Of a stretch of 64,000 nucleotides of DNA, positions 3,080-56,148 are shown in pieces. Under the pieces are notes generated by a model, which saw only the letters and a list, made by a program, of their open reading frames with translations, did not search any database and was not told the DNA's origin. The position numbers and the translations under genes were made by a program. The stretch is taken from NCBI GenBank assembly GCA_019873625.1, contig JAIOAW010000008.1, positions 1 through 64,000 on the forward strand. Reading direction: 5' to 3'. The DNA is from Chloroflexota bacterium (GTDB lineage: Bacteria; Chloroflexota; Anaerolineae; UBA1429). Numbering within the stretch: position 1 is the stretch's first letter; the number at the start of each line of letters is the position of its first letter.

Positions 3080-4570
3080 ATGCCACGCTACATCGCGGCC
3101 ATTGACCAAGGCACCACGGGGACGCGTTGTATGTTGTTTGATCACAGCGGCCAACCGGTGGCCTTCCATTACAAGGAACACGAACAGATCTTCCCCCAAC
3201 CCGGCTGGGTGGAGCACGACCCTTTGGAGATTTGGCACGCCGTGCAGGAAGTGGTACACGGTGCCCTCGGCAAAGCAGGGGTCCGGCCTGGCGAAATCGC
3301 CGCCCTGGGCATCACGAACCAGCGCGAGACGACCGTCGTCTGGAACCGCCGCACGGGGCGGCCTTACTACAACGCCATCGTCTGGCAATGCACGCGCACC
3401 CAGCCCCTCTGCCAAGATCTCATCAACCGGGGCTTGGAAGCGCGCTTTCGCGAGCGCACGGGGCTAGTCATTGCCACCTATTTTTCCGGCCCCAAGATCC
3501 GTTGGCTTTTGGATCACGTCCCCGGGTTGCGCGAGGATGCCGAACGCGGCGAGGCGCTCTTTGGCACCATAGATACCTGGCTCATCTGGAACCTCACCGG
3601 CGCGCACGTGACGGATGTAACAAACGCCTCGCGCACGATGTTGATGAACCTGCGCGCGTTGGATTGGGATGAGGAACTCCTGGAGATCCTCGGCATCCCG
3701 CGCGCAATGCTCCCCGAAATCCGCCCCTCCAGCGCGGTCTATGGGATGACCTCCCCCGACCTTCTCGGCGCCTCGGTGCCCGTGTGCGGCGACTTGGGGG
3801 ACCAACAGGCGGCCCTAGTGGGGCAGACCTGTTTCGCCCCCGGCGAGGCCAAAAATACCTACGGCACGGGGTCTTTTCTCCTGATGAACACGGGCGCCCA
3901 GCCGGTGCCCTCGCCGAGCGGCCTCCTCACCACGGTGGCCTATAGCCTGGGCCAAGGGCAGTGCACCTATGCCTTGGAAGGCTCCATCGCCGTAACGGGC
4001 GCAGCCGTGCAGTGGCTACGAGATAACTTGGGCCTCATCCAAAACGCCGCCGAGACGGAGAGCATCGCCGCCACCGTGCCCGATGCCGGCGGGGCCTATT
4101 TCGTGCCGGCCTTCTCGGGGCTGTTCGCGCCCCACTGGGATATGTACGCGCGCGGGGCCATCTTGGGGCTGACGCGCTACATCACCAAGGCCCACTTGGT
4201 GCGCGCCACGCTGGAGGCCATCTGTTACCAAACGCGCGAAGTGCTGGAGGCGATGGAACAGGATTCGGGCATCGCCCTGCAAAGCCTGCGCGTGGATGGC
4301 GGCGCCTCGGCGAATAACCTCCTGATGCAACTGCAAGCCGATATCCTCGATAAGACGGTCATCCGCCCCCGCGTGGGCGAGACGACCTCCCTCGGCGCGG
4401 CCTATGCGGCGGGGCTGGCCATCGGCTTTTGGGAAAACTTGGATGACCTGCGCCGCAACTGGCAAATCGAGCGCACCTTCGAGCCGACCTGGCCCGAAGA
4501 GCGCCGCGCCCAAGGCTATGCCGGCTGGAAAAAGGCCGTGGAGCGCGCCAAGGGTTGGGTGGACCGTTGA
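3080..4570 (+). CDS. glpK: Glycerol kinase
   Basis: 496 residues, typical of GlpK, which phosphorylates glycerol with ATP to sn-glycerol 3-phosphate in the cytoplasm. [14 protein letters not shown] at the N-terminus is the phosphate-binding loop; the paired glycerol-binding residues appear in [10 protein letters not shown] and in the [11 protein letters not shown]-type region (here [14 protein letters not shown]). [11 protein letters not shown] and [19 protein letters not shown] are FGGY-family signatures near residues 265 and 405. No glpF facilitator or glpD dehydrogenase is adjacent; instead it lies in a run of amino-acid and hydroxyacid enzymes. Confidence 0.95.
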
Positions 4571-4590
4571 TCGCACCGAGGAGGTGCCCT

Positions 4591-5595
4591 ATGGCCGAAT
4601 ATCGCGTTTTGGTGAGCATCCCTGAGCCGCTGCGCTCGCGCCTTTTTTCTGAAGACACGCTCGCCAAACTGCGTGCCTTAGGCCGCATCACTTTCAACGA
4701 GGACGGCCGCAATTGGAGCGGCGAGGAATTGGCGCGCCATTTGCCCGGGCAGGACGTGCTCTTGGCGAGTTGGGGGGTGGCGCGGCTCTCGCCGGAGGTG
4801 CTTGCAAGCGCGGATCGCCTGCGCCTGGTGGCTTACGCCGCCGGCAGCGTCAAGGGGTTTGTGAGCGAGGCCCTCTTTGAGCGGGGCATCGCCGTGACGC
4901 ACGCCGCGGCGCGCATCGCCGATTCGGTGGCCGAGATGACCCTCCTTTTGGCCCTCTTGGGCTTGCGCCGCGCCCACGAGTTCGACCGCCGTATGAAGGC
5001 GGGCGAACCCTGGCCGAAAGACCTGGGGGCCAAGACGTTCGAGATTCGCGGCAAGCGCGTGGGCCTTCTGGGGATGGGCTACGTGGGCCGCCGCGCGGCG
5101 CGGCTCTTCCAGGCCGTGGGGGCGGAGGTCTGGTGTTATGACCCCTACCTTTCGGAGGATGCCGCCAAGGCCCTCGGCGTGCACAAGGCCGCGCTCGATG
5201 ATCTCCTGCGCACCTGCCCCATCATCTCGGTGCATTTGCCCATCACGGAGGAGACGCATCACCTCCTCGGTGTGCGGGAATTGGCGCTCCTGCAAGATGG
5301 CGCCCTGTTCATCAACACGGCGCGCGCCTGGGCCGTGGATGGCGAGGCGCTGTTGCGGGAACTGGAGACAGGGCGCTTCTGGGCGGCCCTCGACGTGTTC
5401 GATGAAGAACCCCTCCCGGCCGATAGCCCTCTGCGCCGGTTAGGGAACGTCCTCCTCACGCCGCATATCGCCGGGCAGACGGTGGATGCCTATTACGGCT
5501 TGGGCGAATGCATGGTGGATGAAATCGAACGCTTTATCACGGGCCAGCCGCTCCAATACCTGATCCGCCCCGAGGCCCTCGCCCATATGGCCTAA
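4591..5595 (+). CDS. D-isomer-specific 2-hydroxyacid dehydrogenase
   Basis: 334 residues from the ATG that follows GAGGAGGTGCCCT; the upstream in-frame ATG lies inside glpK. The NAD-binding loop GLLGMGYVGRRAARLF is near residue 158, and the catalytic triad positions are visible: Arg in INTARAWAVD, Glu in DVFDEEPLP and His in LTPHIAGQT. The family reduces 2-keto acids such as glyoxylate, hydroxypyruvate or phosphonopyruvate with NAD(P)H. The usual VNTARG is INTARA here, a mild variation. The substrate is not assignable; the neighbouring glycerol kinase and D-amino-acid-type enzyme suggest a role in three-carbon or serine-family metabolism. Confidence 0.9.
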   Translation: MAEYRVLVSIPEPLRSRLFSEDTLAKLRALGRITFNEDGRNWSGEELARHLPGQDVLLASWGVARLSPEVLASADRLRLVAYAAGSVKGFVSEALFERGIAVTHAAARIADSVAEMTLLLALLGLRRAHEFDRRMKAGEPWPKDLGAKTFEIRGKRVGLLGMGYVGRRAARLFQAVGAEVWCYDPYLSEDAAKALGVHKAALDDLLRTCPIISVHLPITEETHHLLGVRELALLQDGALFINTARAWAVDGEALLRELETGRFWAALDVFDEEPLPADSPLRRLGNVLLTPHIAGQTVDAYYGLGECMVDEIERFITGQPLQYLIRPEALAHMA

Positions 5596-5619
5596 CTTGC
5601 CCCTGTAAGGAGGAAAAAG

Positions 5620-6711
5620 ATGGATACTTACCCCATCGGGCTGCGCCGAGAGGAACTCGATACCCCGACCCTCTGCCTGGATGCGGACGCGCTCGAGCGG
5701 AACATCGCGCGTATGGCTGACTTTCTGCGGGCCCGAGGGGTGGGCCTGCGCCCCCATTCCAAGACGCACAAATGCTCCACCATCGCTTGGAAGCAACTCC
5801 GGGCCGGCGCGGTGGGCATTACCTGCGCCAAGGTGAGCGAGGCGGAGGTGATGGCCCAGGCGGGGATTCGCGACATCCTCATCGCTAACCAAATCGTAAC
5901 GCCCCACAAGATCGCGCGGTTGGTGAACCTGGCCGCCTATACGGAAGTGATGGTGGCCGTGGAGGATTGGGCCAATGCCCAGGCCCTCTCTGAGGCGGCC
6001 CAGGCCAAAGGGGTGAAACTGCGCACCATCATCGAGGTGGACGTGGGCATGGGCCGCTGCGGCACGGCCCCCGGCGAGCCGACCTTGGCCCTAGCCCAAA
6101 AGGTGCTCGCCCTCAAGGGGTTGGATTTTCGCGGCCTGATGGGTTACGAAGGGCACGCCGTGATGATCCCCGATCTTGAGGCGCGCCGCCAGGCCGTGGA
6201 GGCGGCGATGAGGCGCCTCTTGGAGACGCGCGACCTTTTGCTGCACCACAGCATCCCCGTGGAGGTCGTTTCTGCCGGGGGCACGGGCACTTACCAGATG
6301 ACCTCCCAATATCAAGGCATTACCGACCTCCAATGCGGCTCTTATGCCACGATGGATGCCAAATACCGCTCCGTGGGGATTGACTTTGAGCCGGCCCTGA
6401 CGGTCATCGCGCGGGTCATCAGCGTGCGGGGGGCCGACCACGCCGTGATTGATGCGGGGATGAAGGCGCTCACCACGGAATTCGGCCTGCCGCAGGTCAT
6501 CCATCCCCAGGGTTGGGCCTTGACGCGCCTTTCGGAGGAACACGGCATCCTGGCCCGCCAAGGGGGCGATCCCCTCTCGCGGGGAGATTTGATCGAGATC
6601 GTCCCTTCGCACGGGTGCACCACCATCAACCTGCACGGGGCCTATACCGTCCTTCGCCAAGGGGTGGTCGAGGCCGTATGGCCCATCGCAGCGCGCGGGT
6701 GCGTGCAATGA
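5620..6711 (+). CDS. D-threonine aldolase / D-serine dehydratase-like PLP enzyme
   Basis: 363 residues of the alanine-racemase-N, DSD1-like fold (fold type III PLP enzyme). The PLP lysine lies in RPHSKTHK near residue 48, and the C-terminal metal-binding motif is PSHGCTTINLHG near residue 328, as in metal-activated D-threonine aldolases and eukaryotic-type D-serine dehydratases. Such enzymes cleave D-3-hydroxyamino acids or deaminate D-serine. An AAGGAGGAAAAAG site precedes the ATG. It is the last gene of the forward run that begins before ald; an imperfect hairpin follows its stop codon. Confidence 0.87.
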   Translation: MDTYPIGLRREELDTPTLCLDADALERNIARMADFLRARGVGLRPHSKTHKCSTIAWKQLRAGAVGITCAKVSEAEVMAQAGIRDILIANQIVTPHKIARLVNLAAYTEVMVAVEDWANAQALSEAAQAKGVKLRTIIEVDVGMGRCGTAPGEPTLALAQKVLALKGLDFRGLMGYEGHAVMIPDLEARRQAVEAAMRRLLETRDLLLHHSIPVEVVSAGGTGTYQMTSQYQGITDLQCGSYATMDAKYRSVGIDFEPALTVIARVISVRGADHAVIDAGMKALTTEFGLPQVIHPQGWALTRLSEEHGILARQGGDPLSRGDLIEIVPSHGCTTINLHGAYTVLRQGVVEAVWPIAARGCVQ

Positions 6712-6717
6712 GTTTGG

Positions 6718-6741
6718 AGTGCGGCGGTAAGCCTCCGCACT
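6718..6741 (+). terminator. Possible weak terminator hairpin
   Basis: AGTGCGG pairs with CCGCACT just after the D-threonine-aldolase-like gene; the stem can be lengthened by two pairs with one mismatch. There is no T-run behind it, so it may only weakly stop transcription before the promoter of the next gene. Confidence 0.35.
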
Positions 6742-6751
6742 GAAATTGGGC

Positions 6752-6780
6752 TTGACAGGCGCCCTTCTCTCATAGTAAAT
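6752..6780 (+). promoter_or_regulatory. Possible promoter of the aldehyde ferredoxin oxidoreductase gene
   Basis: A perfect TTGACA (6752-6757) is followed by AT-richer sequence CATAGTAAATAAG, but no good -10 box falls at the ideal spacing; TAGTAA at 15 bases is the closest. The -35 and the position 75 bases upstream of the gene support a promoter; the exact -10 is uncertain. Confidence 0.4.
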
Positions 6781-6831
6781 AAGGCCCTAGTGCGCCGTAG
6801 GTCTCGACAATGCCACAAAAGGAGGATAGCC

Positions 6832-8706
6832 ATGGTCAAAGGGTATGCGGGACGGATCTTGCATGTAGATTTGAGCGCGAACAAGACCTGGGTGGAGGAA
6901 CCGCCGGAGACCTTTTACCGGCGCTACCTGGGCGGGAACGGTTTCATCGCTTACTATTTGTTGAACGAGGTGCCCAAGGGGGCCGATCCTCTGGGGCCGG
7001 AGAACCGCTTGATCTTCGCCAATGGGACGTTTACCGGCAACCCTATCGCCGGCGCGGGTCGGAGTATGGTAGGCGCCAAATCGCCCCTTACGGGCGGCTA
7101 TGGCGAGGCGGATGTGGGCGGCTTTTTCGGCGCCGAGATGAAACTGGCCGGGTTCGATGCCATTGTCGTCAAGGGCGTGGCAGAATCGCCGGTGTATCTC
7201 TATTTGCACGATGGCGAGGCGGAAATTCGCCCTGCAGACCATCTGTGGGGGATGACTACGCTGGATACCCAAAACGCCATCCAATCGGAGTTGGGCGATA
7301 GCCGCGTGCGCCTGGCGATGATCGGCCCGGCGGGCGAAAAGTTGGTGCGCACGGCCTGCGTCATCAATGACCTGCGCCATGCAGCGGGGCGCTGCGGCAT
7401 CGGCGCGGTGATGGGGTCCAAAAAACTCAAAGCCGTGGCGGCGCGCGGGCGAGGCCCCGTGGAAGTGGCCAACCCCGAAAAACTCCGCGAACTGGCCCGT
7501 TGGATGGTCGAGCATTGGAAGGAGAAGGCCTGGAACCTGCACGATACGGGCACCGACGGCGGCCTGATTGACCTGCACGAGGCCGGCCAACTCCCCACGC
7601 GCAACTTCCAAGATGGGCAGTTCGAGGGCGCCCAAAAGATCACCGGCACGACGATGCGCGATACCATCCTTACCGGCCGCGAGGGCTGCTACGCCTGCCC
7701 CATCCGCTGCAAGCGCGTGGTCAAGGTGGATGATGCCGACTACAAGGTGGACCCCATCTATGGCGGCCCCGAGTATGAGACGGTCGGCTCTTTTGGCTCC
7801 AACTGCGGCGTAGATGACCTGCGGGCCATCGCCAAGGCCCACGAACTGTGCAACGCCTACGGCGCGGATACCATCTCCACGGGGATGGCCGTATCCTTTG
7901 CGATGGAGTGCTACGAAAAGGGTATCCTCACCAAAGAGGATACGGGCGGCCTTGACCTGCGCTTCGGCAATGGCGAGGCGATGGTGGAACTCACGCGGCG
8001 CATTTGCCTGCGCGAGCCGGGGTTGGGCGACCTCTTGGCCGAGGGGCCGGTCATCGCGGCGAAAAAGATCGGCAAGGGCGCCGAGGCCTATGCCATCCAC
8101 GTCAAGGGCCAGCCCTTCCCGATGCACGAATGCCGCACGCGGCATGGCCAGGCGCTGGGCTATGCCGTCTCGCCCACGGGCGCCGACCATATGCACAACT
8201 TTTGGGATGGGAGCCTCGATAAGGAACCCCTCTCCGAAGAGATGCGGTCTTTGGGAATCTATACGCCCGTTCCGCAGACGGTGCTCAACGCCGATAAAGT
8301 GCGCGCCTATACCTTTGTCGTCAACTGGCAGTGGCTCCACAACCATCTGGGGAACTGTATGTTCGTCCCCTGGACGCGCGACCAGATGGTGGACATCGTA
8401 CGCGCCCTGACGGGCTGGGAGACCAACCAGTGGGAGATGATGAAGGCAGGCGAGCGCGGCGTGACGCTGGCGCGCATCTTTAACTTGCGCGAGGGCTTTA
8501 CGCGCAAAGATGACGTCTTGCCGTGGCGGATGAACACGCCCTTTGTGAGCGGCTCGGTGAACGAAAAGCCCGTGGACCCCGAAGTGCTCGATGAGCACTT
8601 GAGCCTCTTTTACGGGATGATGGGCTGGGACGAAACGACGGGCGTGCCCAAACTGGCTACCCTGCACGAGTTGGACATCGCCTGGGCGGCCGCGCATCTG
8701 CCGTAA
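6832..8706 (+). CDS. aor: Aldehyde ferredoxin oxidoreductase (tungsten-pterin family)
   Basis: 624 residues from the ATG after AAAAGGAGGATAGCC. The N-terminal domain (GYAGRILHVDLS, YLGGNGFIAYYLL) and GRSMVGAKSPLTGGYGEADV are AOR-family signatures; the iron-sulfur motif CYACPIRC is near residue 285 and its likely fourth Cys is in HNHLGNCMF near residue 510. The family oxidises aldehydes to acids with ferredoxin, using tungsto-bispterin, in strict anaerobes. The two pterin-binding motifs, DxxGLD and DxxGLC in the archetype, read NAYGAD and NHLGNC here, so this is a paralogue whose substrate is open. No ferredoxin or pterin genes are adjacent. Confidence 0.93.
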   Translation: MVKGYAGRILHVDLSANKTWVEEPPETFYRRYLGGNGFIAYYLLNEVPKGADPLGPENRLIFANGTFTGNPIAGAGRSMVGAKSPLTGGYGEADVGGFFGAEMKLAGFDAIVVKGVAESPVYLYLHDGEAEIRPADHLWGMTTLDTQNAIQSELGDSRVRLAMIGPAGEKLVRTACVINDLRHAAGRCGIGAVMGSKKLKAVAARGRGPVEVANPEKLRELARWMVEHWKEKAWNLHDTGTDGGLIDLHEAGQLPTRNFQDGQFEGAQKITGTTMRDTILTGREGCYACPIRCKRVVKVDDADYKVDPIYGGPEYETVGSFGSNCGVDDLRAIAKAHELCNAYGADTISTGMAVSFAMECYEKGILTKEDTGGLDLRFGNGEAMVELTRRICLREPGLGDLLAEGPVIAAKKIGKGAEAYAIHVKGQPFPMHECRTRHGQALGYAVSPTGADHMHNFWDGSLDKEPLSEEMRSLGIYTPVPQTVLNADKVRAYTFVVNWQWLHNHLGNCMFVPWTRDQMVDIVRALTGWETNQWEMMKAGERGVTLARIFNLREGFTRKDDVLPWRMNTPFVSGSVNEKPVDPEVLDEHLSLFYGMMGWDETTGVPKLATLHELDIAWAAAHLP

Positions 8707-27303: not shown

Positions 27304-27843
27304 ATGAGTAGGCAAGGGCGTCAGCAAGGGGCAGAAATGGCCGGCTCCACCGACCCAGAGCGGGATGCGCTCTTTGAGCGGCTCTTCCGCGAGTTTCAGG
27401 GGGTTATGGTGAACTATCTCTATCGCCTGACGGGAGATGCCGCGCAAGCGGAGGAACTGGCGCAGGACGTTTTTGTGCGCGCCTACCAGGCCCTGCCGAG
27501 GTTGAAAGAGGGATCAAACTATCGCGCCTGGCTCTACCGCATCGCCACGCATACCGCGTATGATGCGCTCCGGCGCAAGCGGCTGGTGCACTTTTTGCCC
27601 CTTGAGGCACATGATGCCGCCCCTGCCGCCCCAAGCGATGTGCGCGATGCCGTTCAAGAAGCCCTTCTGCGCTTGCCGCCGGAGTACAGGGTGCCGCTTG
27701 TATTGTATAGCGTGCAGGGTTATTCCACGGCGGAAATCGCCGAAATGCTGGGGATTTCGATAGGCGCCGTCAAGACGCGCCTGTACCGGGCGCGGGAGGC
27801 GTTCCGCCGCATCTATCAAGGGGATGAAGGGGATGGTGTGTAA
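27304..27843 (+). CDS. ECF-type RNA polymerase sigma factor
   Basis: 179 residues; the ATG at 27337 is an alternative start. Region 2 is YRLTGDAAQAEELAQDVFVRAYQ with YRAWLYRIATHTAYDALRRKR, and region 4 is LPPEYRVPLVLYSVQGYSTAEIAEMLGISIGAVKTRLYRARE, a helix-turn-helix for the -35 box. These are the two domains of extracytoplasmic-function sigma factors. The 3' end overlaps the next gene, a zinc-finger membrane protein, which is the usual arrangement for an ECF sigma factor and its anti-sigma factor. Confidence 0.93.
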   Translation: MSRQGRQQGAEMAGSTDPERDALFERLFREFQGVMVNYLYRLTGDAAQAEELAQDVFVRAYQALPRLKEGSNYRAWLYRIATHTAYDALRRKRLVHFLPLEAHDAAPAAPSDVRDAVQEALLRLPPEYRVPLVLYSVQGYSTAEIAEMLGISIGAVKTRLYRAREAFRRIYQGDEGDGV

Positions 27844-28837
27844 GAGGTTCCAGCGCGAGTTGGCGCACTACCGCGAACTGGCCCCCGCGCAGCGTCAGGC
27901 GCTCGATGAGCACCTGCGCACCTGCGCCCATTGCCGCCGCGCCCTCGCCGCCTATGCCCGGCAAGATGCCCTTCTGGGGGGCCTTGCGCCCGTCCAACCC
28001 TCTCCCGAGTGGGCGCGGCGGGTGCGAGAGCGCCTCTCTGCCCAAGGGGAGCGGCCCAAGGCCGCTCACCCGGCCTGGGCCAGGGCTTGGGCCTTGGCCT
28101 TGTTAGCCGCCCTCCTCCTTTTTGGCTCGACGCTCGCCGTATCGGCCAACGCCTTGCCGGGCCAACCCCTCTATGCGCTCAAACGGACGCAGGAGGAACT
28201 CCGCCTGCGCCTGCTCGCCGAGGGCACGCCCCGCGCGGAATACGCCCAAACCCTGGCCGAGCGCCGCCGCGAGGAGGCCAAGCGGCTGATTCAGAAAGGG
28301 GGCACGGCGGAACTCGCCTTCGAGGGGCCGGTGGAGGCGATGCAAGGGGCCTGGTGGCGTGTGGGGGGCGTGGAGGTGCAGGTAATGGGTACGGTTCGCC
28401 CCGATCCTCTGCCCGCCCTGGGCGAGCGGGTTTCCCTCCGCGTGCGCATTCAGGGCGGCCATGCCGTGGCCCTGGCCGTTTTTCGCGCGGCGCCCTCTCC
28501 CACGCCGAATGGCGGGGGGCCTCAGCCCACGCTCACACAAGAAGCGCCTTCCGCCACGGCCCGCCCCTCGGAGGCCACACCCACGCCGCGCCGCGAAGGG
28601 CAAATGCCCTCCCGCGCCTTGCCGCCGGCGCCCTCTATCACGCCTGCGCCAAGCGCCTTGCCCACTTTTGTGCCGCCTGGCCAACAAAAAAAGGCGCTCC
28701 AACCCACGCCCCCTGTGCCTACGCCCACGGCCCCGGCGGGCGAGGGGCAAACTCCCTCCTCGCCAGGGGGGAAAGGCCCAACAGAGAGCAAAAGGCCGAC
28801 CGAAGCGCCCGGTGGGGCGCCGCGCGGCCGGCCGTAA
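27824..28837 (+). CDS. Probable anti-sigma factor, zinc-finger membrane protein with Pro/Thr-rich tail
   Basis: 337 residues from the first ATG (27824); 27833 is equally possible. The N-terminus has the zinc anti-sigma motif H-x3-C-x2-C in DEHLRTCAHCRRAL near residues 27-40. A transmembrane helix (ALALLAALLLFGSTLAVSA) spans about residues 87-105. Outside lie a DUF5667-like segment (GQPLYALKRTQEELRLRLL), a DUF5666-like beta domain (VEVQVMGTVRPDPLPALGE) and about 100 residues rich in Pro, Thr and Ser. It overlaps the sigma gene by 20 bases, so it probably holds that sigma factor at the membrane until a signal releases it. Confidence 0.85.
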   Translation: MKGMVCKRFQRELAHYRELAPAQRQALDEHLRTCAHCRRALAAYARQDALLGGLAPVQPSPEWARRVRERLSAQGERPKAAHPAWARAWALALLAALLLFGSTLAVSANALPGQPLYALKRTQEELRLRLLAEGTPRAEYAQTLAERRREEAKRLIQKGGTAELAFEGPVEAMQGAWWRVGGVEVQVMGTVRPDPLPALGERVSLRVRIQGGHAVALAVFRAAPSPTPNGGGPQPTLTQEAPSATARPSEATPTPRREGQMPSRALPPAPSITPAPSALPTFVPPGQQKKALQPTPPVPTPTAPAGEGQTPSSPGGKGPTESKRPTEAPGGAPRGRP

Positions 28838-53187: not shown

Positions 53188-53242
53188 CCGGTGTGTATGG
53201 GGGGCGGGTATCTGCGAATTTTCACTTTTGTGAACAAAACCC

Positions 53243-53271
53243 TTGCGTTCCGGGGCGAATTCTGCTATGAT
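53243..53271 (+). promoter_or_regulatory. Promoter of the terminase cassette
   Basis: TTGCGT (53243-53248), 17 bases, TATGAT (53266-53271). The expected start (about 53278) lies in the LexA-type box that follows. A shorter inverted pair TTTTG/CAAAA (53226-53239) stands just upstream of the -35 box and could be a second protein site. Confidence 0.75.
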
Positions 53272-53276
53272 GGGAA

Positions 53277-53292
53277 TAGAACAAATGTTCTA
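53277..53292. promoter_or_regulatory. LexA-type SOS box
   Basis: TAGAACAAATGTTCTA has perfect 7-base arms and contains GAAC-N4-GTTC, the core of Bacillus-type LexA boxes. It starts 6 bases after the -10 box, over the predicted transcription start, and 27 bases before the first gene of the cassette. LexA bound here would block transcription until DNA damage. Confidence 0.78.
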
Positions 53293-53318
53293 ATCTCGCT
53301 CAAAGGAGAGATACCCCT

Positions 53319-53801
53319 ATGCCCCGGAACCCCGCCAAACGCCGCTGCACCTTCCCCGGCTGCCGCGCCTGGGCGCGGCGCGGGTCCGATTGGTGCGCCT
53401 CGCATGAGCGGTCTCGCGCCCTGCAAGAGGGCGCGGACCTCGTGCTCCCGCTCCTGCGCGCCCTGGCCCACAAGGAAAGCACTCCACCCCCTCTCGATGA
53501 CGACCTCGCCCTCATCGAAGAGGAGTTGAAGCGCCTGTTTGAGGCGCGCCAGCAGTTCCTGGCCTGGGTGGCCAAGGCCCGCGAGGAAAATGATCGCGTA
53601 ACGCCCACCCAATTCTTGCGCGCCTGGAACGACTCCACGGCGCGGGTCATCCAACTCTTGCGGGCGCGGCGAGACCTGACGGGCGGCGGTTCAGCGGAGG
53701 ATGGCCTGTTCAACGCCGTGTATGACGCCTTGGAAGCCCTCCTCCCCAAGGAGAGCGTGCCAGAAGGAGGCAGCGATGCCCACACGACCGCTGCCCAATA
53801 A
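53319..53801 (+). CDS. Zinc-knuckle protein preceding terminase, possible small terminase subunit
   Basis: 160 residues behind AAAGGAGAGATACCCCT. Residues 9-30 hold C-x4-C...C-x2-H (RRCTFPGC, DWCASHE), a short zinc knuckle seen in phage-type proteins encoded before terminases. The middle is helical and charged (EEELKRLFEARQQFLAWVAKAREEN) and likely oligomerises. No family name can be given with confidence. Its 3' end overlaps the terminase start by 26 bases and it is the first gene after the SOS-type promoter, so a DNA-recognition role for the terminase is a reasonable guess. Confidence 0.75.
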   Translation: MPRNPAKRRCTFPGCRAWARRGSDWCASHERSRALQEGADLVLPLLRALAHKESTPPPLDDDLALIEEELKRLFEARQQFLAWVAKAREENDRVTPTQFLRAWNDSTARVIQLLRARRDLTGGGSAEDGLFNAVYDALEALLPKESVPEGGSDAHTTAAQ

Positions 53802-55272
53802 CGGCCGACGGCGCGCCTTGGTGGAGGCGATGTCCACCATCGAGGCCTTCAGCCGGCAGGTGCTCCGTCGCCCTCTGCGTGCCTACCAACTCGAGCCGGC
53901 CCGCGCCATCGTCGAATCCGTCCTGCGTGGGGAGGGGCTGCTCTTTGCCGTAATGATGCCCCGCCAGGCCGGCAAGAACGAGACCTCCGCCCAAATCGAG
54001 GCGATGCTCCTCAACCTCTACCGGCGCAAGGGGGGCTATCTCGTCAAGGCGGCGCCCACCTTTCGGCCCCAGGCCCTCAACAGCCTTCAGCGGCTGGAAT
54101 CTCTCTTGGAATCGAGCGCCCTGGGCGCGCCCCAGCGCGAGGAGGGGTACATCCTGCGCGTGGGGCGGGCGCGGGCCGTCTTCCTTTCGGGCGCGCCGGG
54201 GGCGAACGTGGTGGGCGCCACGGCGAACATCCTCTTGGAGGGGGATGAGGCGCAGGATCTCGACGCCGAGGTATGGAACAAGGCCTTCCGCCCTATGGCC
54301 GCCTCGACGAACGCCACCACCGTCCTTTGGGGCACCGCCTGGACGCGCACCACCCTCCTCGCGCAGACCATCCGCGCCCTGCGCCACCTGGAGGCGCAGG
54401 ATGGCCGGCGACGGGTGTTCATCATCCCCTGGGAGCGCGTGGCGGCTGAGGTGCCCGCCTACGGCACCTATGTGCGCGGCGAGATCGCCCGCCTCGGGCG
54501 CGAGCACCCGCTCATCCGCACGCAGTACCTACTGGAGGAGATCGAGGCCGAAAGCGGGATGTTCCCGCCCGCCACGCGGCGGCTTATGGAGGGGACGCAT
54601 CCTCGCCAGCACGCCCCACGGCCCGGCGGGCGTTACGCCCTTCTCGTGGATGTGGCCGGCGGCGCCGAAGAGGGGACCTTTTTTCGCGGCGAGGCCTTAC
54701 GCGCCGCGCAACCCCGCAAAGATTCCACGGCCCTGACCGTGGTGGAGATCGTGCCCACCGCTGGCCTGCCGCGTTACCACGTGGTGGATCGCGCCGCGTG
54801 GACGGGCGCCCCCCAGGAGGAGTTGTGCGGAGCGCTCGTGCGCCTGGCCGAGCATTGGGGAGCAGAACGCCTCATCATAGACGCCACCGGTCTGGGTGCG
54901 CCTTTGGCGCACGCCTTGGCGCGCTACCTTGGGGGGCGCGTGCGGCCCTTTACCTTCACGGCGCCTTCAAAGAGCGCCCTAGGGTGGGCCTTCTTGGGCT
55001 TGTGCAACGCGGGGCGCTTTCGAGATCACGCCCCCGAGCCGGAACCGGCAAAGGATGGCACGCGCGCCCAATTCTGGCGTGAGGTGGCCGCCGCCGAGTT
55101 CGAGGTGCTGGATGGCCCCCAGCGCCTGATGCGTTGGGGCGTGAGCGACCCGGCCCTCCACGATGATTTTCTGATGTCGGCCGCTCTGTGCGCCCTTTTG
55201 GAAGAGGAAGCGGCCGGGCCGGCCCAACCCTCGCTCGTCATCGAGGCAGGGGACCCCTTGCAAGGGGCCTAG
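53776..55272 (+). CDS. terL: Phage-type terminase large subunit (orphan)
   Basis: 498 residues from MPTRPLPNNG. ATPase: Walker A-like PRQAGKNE at residues 62-69 and Walker B ILLEGDEAQD at 152-161. Nuclease (RNase H fold): Asp292 in LLVDVAGG, Asp369 in LIIDATGLG and Asp463-Asp464 in HDDFLMSA, so all metal ligands are kept. Such proteins cut concatemeric DNA and pump it into capsids. No portal, capsid, protease or tail gene lies within the window, and neighbours on both sides are metabolic. The intact motifs argue against decay; function in packaging for elements elsewhere or in a non-capsid process is open. Confidence 0.88.
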   Translation: MPTRPLPNNGRRRALVEAMSTIEAFSRQVLRRPLRAYQLEPARAIVESVLRGEGLLFAVMMPRQAGKNETSAQIEAMLLNLYRRKGGYLVKAAPTFRPQALNSLQRLESLLESSALGAPQREEGYILRVGRARAVFLSGAPGANVVGATANILLEGDEAQDLDAEVWNKAFRPMAASTNATTVLWGTAWTRTTLLAQTIRALRHLEAQDGRRRVFIIPWERVAAEVPAYGTYVRGEIARLGREHPLIRTQYLLEEIEAESGMFPPATRRLMEGTHPRQHAPRPGGRYALLVDVAGGAEEGTFFRGEALRAAQPRKDSTALTVVEIVPTAGLPRYHVVDRAAWTGAPQEELCGALVRLAEHWGAERLIIDATGLGAPLAHALARYLGGRVRPFTFTAPSKSALGWAFLGLCNAGRFRDHAPEPEPAKDGTRAQFWREVAAAEFEVLDGPQRLMRWGVSDPALHDDFLMSAALCALLEEEAAGPAQPSLVIEAGDPLQGA

Positions 55273-55285
55273 GAGGAAGGATGTT

Positions 55286-55912
55286 ATGGATGGATCGCTC
55301 TCCGAAGGAGAACTCGTCGCCCTCTGGCAGGTGGCCTGGGAGATGGCCCGCCGCCTCTGCGCGGGCACGCTGGCGCGCCTAGCGCGGGGCGAGGGCGGGT
55401 TCTATGAGGCAGAGGATTTCTATCAAGACCTCTTTATCGAGTTCTGGCGGCTGGCGCGCGTGTGGCGGCGGCACGATGGCTCCGCCGAGGCCCTCTGGCG
55501 CGCCTGGCGCCGCCGGTTATGGGGCGGGGGCCGGCGCATTTTGCGGAGGGCGCCCCAACGCCTTTGGCATAACCCCGAATACCCCATCAACCCCCTGGAG
55601 ATGGCCTTGGCTGGGCCGGGAGATGGCGAAAGGGAGCCATCTATCGCCAATATCCCCGCCTTAGAGGCCCTCACCCAGCCGGAGGATGCCGAAACGGCCC
55701 AAGCGCGAAGCGCCGATCTCCAAGCGTTAGAAGAGGCCCTCTGGGCGCTCCGCCCCGCCCAACGGCAAATCCTCTATATGGCCGCCGTGCTCGAGACCTC
55801 CCCTAGCGAGGTCGCTCAGATGCTGCACCTCGGCAATGCCAAGGAGGTCTATCAGCACTTGTACCGCGCGCGGCGCGCTCTGCGCCGCCATCTCTCCAAG
55901 GAGGCCCCATGA
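55286..55912 (+). CDS. Sigma-70-like factor of the terminase cassette
   Basis: 208 residues, 13 bases after terL and preceded by TAGGAGGAAGGATGTT. Region 2-like YEAEDFYQDLFIEFWRLARVW near residue 40 and region 4-like LRPAQRQILYMAAVLETSPSEVAQMLHL then YQHLYRARRALRRHL near residues 152-203 place it with sigma-70 family factors, although the linker (about residues 85-140) is unusual and Trp/Arg-rich. Phage late-gene activators of this kind exist. It may direct RNA polymerase to late genes located elsewhere. It overlaps the next gene by four bases. Confidence 0.72.
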   Translation: MDGSLSEGELVALWQVAWEMARRLCAGTLARLARGEGGFYEAEDFYQDLFIEFWRLARVWRRHDGSAEALWRAWRRRLWGGGRRILRRAPQRLWHNPEYPINPLEMALAGPGDGEREPSIANIPALEALTQPEDAETAQARSADLQALEEALWALRPAQRQILYMAAVLETSPSEVAQMLHLGNAKEVYQHLYRARRALRRHLSKEAP

Positions 55913-56148
55913 CTCCTCCCGAAGAACGGCTGGAACGCCTGAGTCGCCGCCTCGAACGGGAAAATGCCCTGTTCCTCAGCCTCCTGGGGCGGGGCTGCAC
56001 CGTCGAAGAGGCCGAAAGGGCCTTGCGGGCCTGCGAGATGTGGATTCTCTGGGGCCTGCGGCCGCCCCAGGCGATGCTCAAGGGGGCTTGGCGAGGGGCT
56101 GCTTTGCGCTATAATCTCCCCCAGCCGGCCCCGGCCGGCCATTTTTGA
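55909..56148 (+). CDS. Small protein, last gene of the terminase cassette
   Basis: 79 residues with an ATGA start overlapping the sigma-like gene. It is mostly helical and charged ([22 protein letters not shown]), followed by [22 protein letters not shown], which looks like a helix-turn-helix-sized segment. No family recognised. Translation coupling indicates that it acts with the sigma-like factor, for example as a partner or regulator. The promoter of the following mannonate dehydratase gene lies inside its last codons. Confidence 0.65.
56088..56115 (+). promoter_or_regulatory. Promoter of the mannonate dehydratase gene
   Basis: TTGGCG (56088-56093), 16 bases, perfect TATAAT (56110-56115), 70 bases ahead of the ATG at 56186. 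It lies within the 3' end of the preceding small gene. Confidence 0.65.

Follow-up and report, generated by a model that had tools for sequence, protein, structure and literature searches.

Introduction

Gene transfer agents (GTAs) are defined by proteins derived from tailed phages, by tailed-virion-like particles that package mostly random host DNA in a head too small for the GTA's own genome, by endogenised genes that often lie at multiple loci, by mostly vertical inheritance with co-diversification with the host, and by delivery of DNA to other cells (PMC9662315). The genes of a GTA are often dispersed over more than one locus (PMC9662315, PMC11841831), which is part of the reason why genomics has so far been unable to separate new GTAs from prophage remnants (PMC11841831). 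Beyond the alphaproteobacteria, GTAs have been found experimentally in Brachyspira, Desulfovibrio and Methanococcus (PMC11841831). In the GTA of R. capsulatus (RcGTA), the direct activator GafA has a sigma-factor-like C-terminal domain and LexA, as cited in the same paper, acts through CckA (PMC6363796). In full-text searches limited to open-licence papers, no title or abstract described a GTA in Chloroflexi, Chloroflexota or Anaerolineae. Here we describe a terminase cassette at positions 53319-56148 of a 64,000-nt stretch of DNA (the window) from a member of the class Anaerolineae, phylum Chloroflexota (genome G000, 2.76 Mb), together with a portal/capsid locus on another contig of the same genome. 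The two loci probably form a bipartite, SOS-controlled, domesticated tailed-phage system working like a GTA. Known here from its genes alone, the system resembles a GTA in anatomy and regulation.

Like RcGTA and CcGTA of the alphaproteobacteria, the system has packaging and head genes of tailed-phage origin within the host genome, at several loci, with a dedicated candidate activator, and the sigma-like domain of GafA finds a counterpart in the sigma factor of the cassette, a parallel that is close in logic. However, it belongs to another phylum and derives from another phage lineage, its terminase and capsid genes lie on separate loci, and it has a stand-alone extracytoplasmic function (ECF)-like sigma factor within the terminase operon as well as LexA boxes directly at that operon, in place of the CckA route cited for R. 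capsulatus. VSH-1 of Brachyspira hyodysenteriae, a GTA whose genome is described as divided (Stanton 2009, cited in PMC11841831), is similar as far as that cited description goes, but differs in phylum and phage origin. Uncultivated Anaerolineae phages and prophages in IMG/VR (L177-L256, L361-L363) encode homologous small and large terminase subunits (TerS and TerL), portal, protease/capsid fusion, adaptor and tail hub; their genes, in contrast, are mostly linked, no relative of the cassette sigma factor was found among them, and one of them carries a phage recombination gene. Among deposited phages the nearest TerL is that of Bacillus phage vB_BboS-125, deposited as a 58.5 kb phage genome, which at 33% identity is only a distant relative.

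Results

Positions are numbered along the window, genomes, loci and contigs are designated G, L and C, respectively, and genes of the loci were called by a simple script. TerL was searched for in 40 relatives of G000, and the family considered here comprises 15 members including G000. An earlier note on this DNA had reported four coupled genes with an intact terminase, and its observation was confirmed as a whole: all four frames lie on the forward strand with coupled or overlapping starts. The first (53319-53801) encodes a TerS-like protein of 160 aa with an N-terminal CCCH-type zinc motif followed by helices. A profile grown from this product matches a protein in 138 TerL loci, one homologue matches the PHROG terminase small subunit (E 2.5e-4), and alignment revealed the zinc motif in many homologues from phage-like loci as well. 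Its AlphaFold model (predicted local distance difference test score, pLDDT, 85) is all-helical beyond the zinc motif and gave no significant structural match when compared with the PDB. The second frame (53776-55272) encodes TerL (498 aa), which matches phrog_5909, terminase large subunit (E 2.3e-5); its match to the Terminase_6C nuclease was below cut-off (E 0.0033), and Pfam TerL_ATPase gave no match to it. The ATPase and nuclease motifs are nonetheless real and intact, the invariant columns among 12 homologues including R63-Q64, G66-K67-N68, L154-E155, D157-E158, D292, D369 and D463-D464.

The third frame (55286-55912) encodes the ECF-like sigma factor of 208 aa, which matches Pfam Sigma70_r4_2 above cut-off (E 2.1e-7) and the phrog_1740 sigma factor (E 5.8e-10). 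The gene directly follows TerL in every family locus with enough sequence to show it, and neither a relative in IMG/VR nor any viral relative was found. Elsewhere in the window (27304-28837), an ordinary ECF sigma factor gene is followed by a probable anti-sigma gene; it shares only superfamily similarity with the cassette sigma factor. The last frame (55909-56148), whose start overlaps the sigma stop codon, encodes a small helical protein of 79 aa without a family match in Pfam or PHROG, with weak homologues at the equivalent position in G002, G006 and G009 and a similar small open reading frame in G012. The neighbours of the cassette are metabolic genes and no phage gene adjoins it. The claim that the cassette lacks capsid genes was thus correct for its surroundings but not for the genome, where capsid, portal and tail genes exist on another contig.

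That contig was found with profiles built from the portals (A2) and protease/capsid fusions (A3) of Anaerolineae phage relatives, which were run against 41 genomes. G000 has exactly one portal plus protease/major-capsid locus, at G000:C42:4542-7540 (E 4.6e-138 with A2 and 9.1e-215 with A3), so the earlier note had been right in placing the structural genes elsewhere. In the numbering of this locus (L289), the portal gene (4470-5573; PHROG: portal) is followed by the protease/major capsid fusion (about 5585-7549; PHROG: head maturation protease/major head protein), a small holin-like membrane protein, a head-tail adaptor (7996-8625), a small protein, and a tail hub whose gene is cut by the end of C42; host genes lie around them. 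A relative of the tail hub in G007 has, by structure model match, the predicted fold of a Mu gp44/VgrG-type hub with a beta-propeller of the sugar-binding type. Each of the nine family capsids checked retains the His and Ser of the protease. As C42 has the tetranucleotide pattern of G000 itself (r 0.95, against 0.26 and 0.53 for two related phage contigs), it is unlikely to be a stray phage contig in the bin. TerL, portal and protease/capsid fusion all match phage families, as expected of proteins from a tailed-phage ancestor. Genes for an integrase, for replication or for partition were recognised at neither locus. G031 (L027) was the first TerL relative seen to be linked, and searches with its portal and capsid found no counterpart in G000 or the other relatives; that capsid belongs to another lineage, and its failure to match did not signify absence, because profiles from the correct lineage did recover the portal and capsid of G000.

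All the family genomes are draft assemblies, so that any distance between the loci is a minimum and the absence of a gene from one genome weighs little. A single TerL copy with an open frame, 59-68% identical, was found in 10 of the 14 other members, and the cassette is present in 11/15 overall. Every one of these 11 genomes also has portal and/or capsid genes, always on a contig other than that of the cassette. In G000, the 89,862-base contig extends for over 33 kb on both sides of the cassette. Both halves are missing from G004 and G010. Family TerL genes are surrounded by host genes and never by portal or capsid. Some of these surroundings are conserved: G011 and G012, from different genera, share a short-chain dehydrogenase/reductase gene (79%) and a divergent response regulator (52%) as neighbours, and G001 and G008 share a nucleotidase beside the portal (73%). 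The arrangement is that of endogenised genes at multiple loci, with two loci on separate contigs, host genes around them and host composition; in an intact prophage, a single block would hold the genes for integrase, replication, head, tail and lysis, and here the head and terminase genes are unlinked. Two observations that would refute its proposal had been named in the earlier note. As to loss of reading frames in close relatives, the TerL frames proved open as given above. Capsid or portal genes beside homologous cassettes were never seen within the family, but across the class a portal lies close to TerL in 116 of 174 loci from genomes and IMG/VR (protease/capsid fusion in 103).

Selection on TerL and portal is purifying: in the same-genus pair G003/G013, the ratio of nonsynonymous to synonymous substitution rates (dN/dS) was 0.09 for a TerL fragment and 0.08 for the portal, as compared to 0.09 for a host transporter. 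Distances of both proteins followed those of RpoB (Mantel r 0.72 for TerL and 0.71 for portal, p 0.0005), which supports co-diversification with the host for two of the three genes compared. RpoB was used as host marker, RecA distances being too flat to inform.

The cassette promoter, of the sigma70 type, was read directly from the sequence. A -35 element TTGCGT (53243-53248, forward strand) is separated by a 17 bp spacer from an extended -10 element TGcTATGAT (53263-53271, forward strand), TATGAT/TATGCT-like in most family promoters, and a LexA-type palindrome, AGAACAAATGTTCT (53278-53291), covers the start site. GAAC-N4-GTTC stands just past the -10 element in 9/9 family loci with upstream DNA. 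It is very probably the LexA box of this organism, since lexA of G000 has AGAACATCTGTTCC about 70 bp upstream and recN is preceded by AGAACGATTGTTCC; no exact box was present in the recA stretch examined. Allowing one mismatch, the palindrome occurs at 27 sites in the genome, against 37 for a control pattern, so that a single palindrome is not above chance and it is the conservation of the cassette box that carries weight. The cassette promoter has what a LexA-regulon member should have, namely the operator of lexA itself, placed at a promoter and conserved in relatives. Along with the host-tracking distances and purifying selection, this agrees with the earlier proposal of a maintained unit under SOS-type control.

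LexA boxes also precede the portal operons of G002, G006 and G012 and, with one mismatch, that of G001. The portal-side box in G011 appears to belong to a Crp-type helix-turn-helix gene divergent from the portal (L290:4017-4592); this gene was ruled out as a general regulator of the system, as it is absent from G000. Beyond the family, 39 of 71 other genome loci across the class have a box (at least 11/12 matches, no more than 1,250 bp upstream of TerL), as compared to 0/71 in a control stretch. Since LexA boxes occur upstream of TerL class-wide, SOS control seems to be older than the split. Two other LexA-type sites were noted in G000. One is a perfect box (C23, at 27971) with an FtsK/HerA-like DNA-pumping ATPase gene right behind it (L047:8568-9947), and the other is a pair of LexA-like boxes on C18 (L053:9913-9953) before what may be the gene of a small membrane protein, perhaps a division inhibitor of the SOS response.

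A second palindrome, TTCACTTTTGTGAA (53221-53234; TTCAC-N4-GTGAA), lies 8 bp upstream of the -35 element, and its presence there is a new observation. The copy at the cassette promoter is the sole exact one in the genome. The same palindrome is present in the cassette promoters of G002, G003 and G012, with a variant TTCGC-N4-GCGAA in G014, and palindromes of this type stand upstream of the portal in G012 and G014. The simplest reading is that a dedicated regulator acts at this candidate site.

As most of the more distant TerL homologues of the class have portal and capsid linked to them, the split is probably a condition derived within this one family. Linked TerS-TerL-portal-capsid clusters, often with LexA boxes upstream, are found in Anaerolineaceae and relatives, including Leptolinea tardivitalis and Flexilinea flocculi (L117, L127, L130, L133, L139, L146, L150, L156, L160, L161 and others). 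They share chromosomal neighbours (L129/L130/L134/L142; L156/L160/L161), seven loci having the same downstream gene, and may be GTAs too. A different split was seen in G015, of another family, where TerL lies with adaptor and tail hub (L026:8958-13150) and a portal with a stop codon lies elsewhere (L306:11230-12531); a profile search found no capsid, and this system is apparently decaying.

Discussion

Starting from the two loci, their homology, their co-occurrence, the conserved SOS box and the selection on them, we infer a mechanism that comprises LexA binding, sigma dependence, particle formation, cargo and transfer. Locus 1, in the window, is predicted to encode the packaging motor (TerS and TerL), the sigma factor and the small protein, and locus 2, on C42, the portal, protease/capsid fusion, holin-like membrane protein, adaptor and tail hub. 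In undamaged cells, LexA would occupy the start site of locus 1; upon DNA damage LexA would be cleaved, and the motor genes and sigma factor would be made. Switching on locus 2 could then fall to the cassette sigma factor, as we suppose for the G000 species; in relatives whose portal promoters carry boxes, the loss of LexA could do this directly. Once heads had assembled, TerL would fill them with DNA, presumably of the host, because the element's own genes sit at two places; packaging of its own genome from two such distant loci is unlikely.

Several observations weigh against a GTA-like system. The correlation of capsid distances with those of RpoB is weak (r 0.33, p 0.09). G007 (81% complete) has a capsid module without TerL, and G008 a portal fragment only. 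Compared with phage portals, those of the family lack about 60-100 aa (364-402 aa in 9/10, against a phage-type median of 463), mostly at the C-terminal end (L289, L290, L291, L293-L296, L298, L300, L302), and neither locus yielded a recognised gene for a tape measure, tail tube or lysin. The portal operon of G000 has no LexA box. The earlier note had placed the structural genes under the sigma-like factor; when a single shared promoter motif was looked for upstream of portal operons, the best two-block motif occurred in 6 of 8 others, as compared to 4-5 after shuffling, and consisted only of G/C-rich words, so that this part of the proposal gained no support from the sequence. Lastly, a scan of IMG/VR with family portals placed three contigs (L361-L363) within the portal and capsid clade of the family, overturning an early tree without viral tips in that clade. 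They look like real phages, because L362 carries an ERF recombinase gene and L361 has, by inspection, a different terminase; L363 (217-5108), with portal, adaptor, TerS, TerL and capsid linked and TerL apparently frameshifted, is the nearest linked relative of the family system. Monophyly of the family without the viral contigs was neither rejected nor shown (approximately unbiased, AU, test p 0.24 and 0.30), and with phage contigs inside this clade, the family system may be of recent phage origin or may have undergone exchange.

The rival that survives best, though unlikely, is a prophage remnant broken up by rearrangement, its surviving pieces slowly decaying. Such a history would suit the linkage of most class homologues to portal and capsid, the fragment in G008, an insertion between portal and capsid in G001 and the damaged portal and missing capsid of G015. 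However, the catalytic residues and open TerL frames are retained across the family, with dN/dS about 0.09, the LexA box stands in 9/9 loci and the two loci co-occur, and random decay would not retain a packaging motor and a capsid at two places. It is improbable that the element is bipartite yet selfish, packaging mainly its own DNA. Phages with the same portal/capsid module do exist, and branching inside the shared clade is poorly resolved by the AU tests; but the genes lie at two distant sites in host composition, their distances track RpoB, and the two loci are without a recognised integrase, replication or partition gene. No more probable than this is reuse of terminase and capsid in a role unrelated to DNA transfer, for instance as a killing particle, as a compartment or in SOS-controlled DNA processing, for which the short portals, the lack of a recognised tail tube and the sugar-binding-type propeller of the tail hub could be cited; the invariant ATPase and nuclease residues of TerL and the retention of its TerS partner argue instead for real DNA packaging. 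Packaging and regulator genes without neighbouring capsids are typical of some phage satellites, but a satellite that diverts the capsids of a helper to package itself is the least probable alternative, since a capsid or portal locus from the same phage lineage is present in each cassette-bearing family genome itself, no integrase was recognised, and the cassette, in 11/15 members, tracks RpoB in its distances. The interpretation offered in the earlier note is supported overall: its analogy with split GTAs agrees with the unlinked structural locus, whereas its analogy with satellites fits poorly with the genome's own portal and capsid.

A domesticated, GTA-like system therefore remains the preferred reading for the window and C42. 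We give an even chance to the wider proposal of a previously undescribed, SOS-switched GTA family in the Anaerolineae of the Chloroflexota, which in most of the class, cultured strains included, would form one linked, LexA-boxed cluster, and in this family would be split into motor/sigma and shell loci co-ordinated by LexA, its own sigma factor and a regulator binding TTCAC-N4-GTGAA. The split offers a test of its own, in that two unlinked loci co-occur and track the host, and have SOS and palindrome sites in common. If the proposal is true, GTAs would gain a phylum, DNA transfer would be tied directly to DNA damage, and the cultured Anaerolineaceae with linked versions would open the system to experiments.

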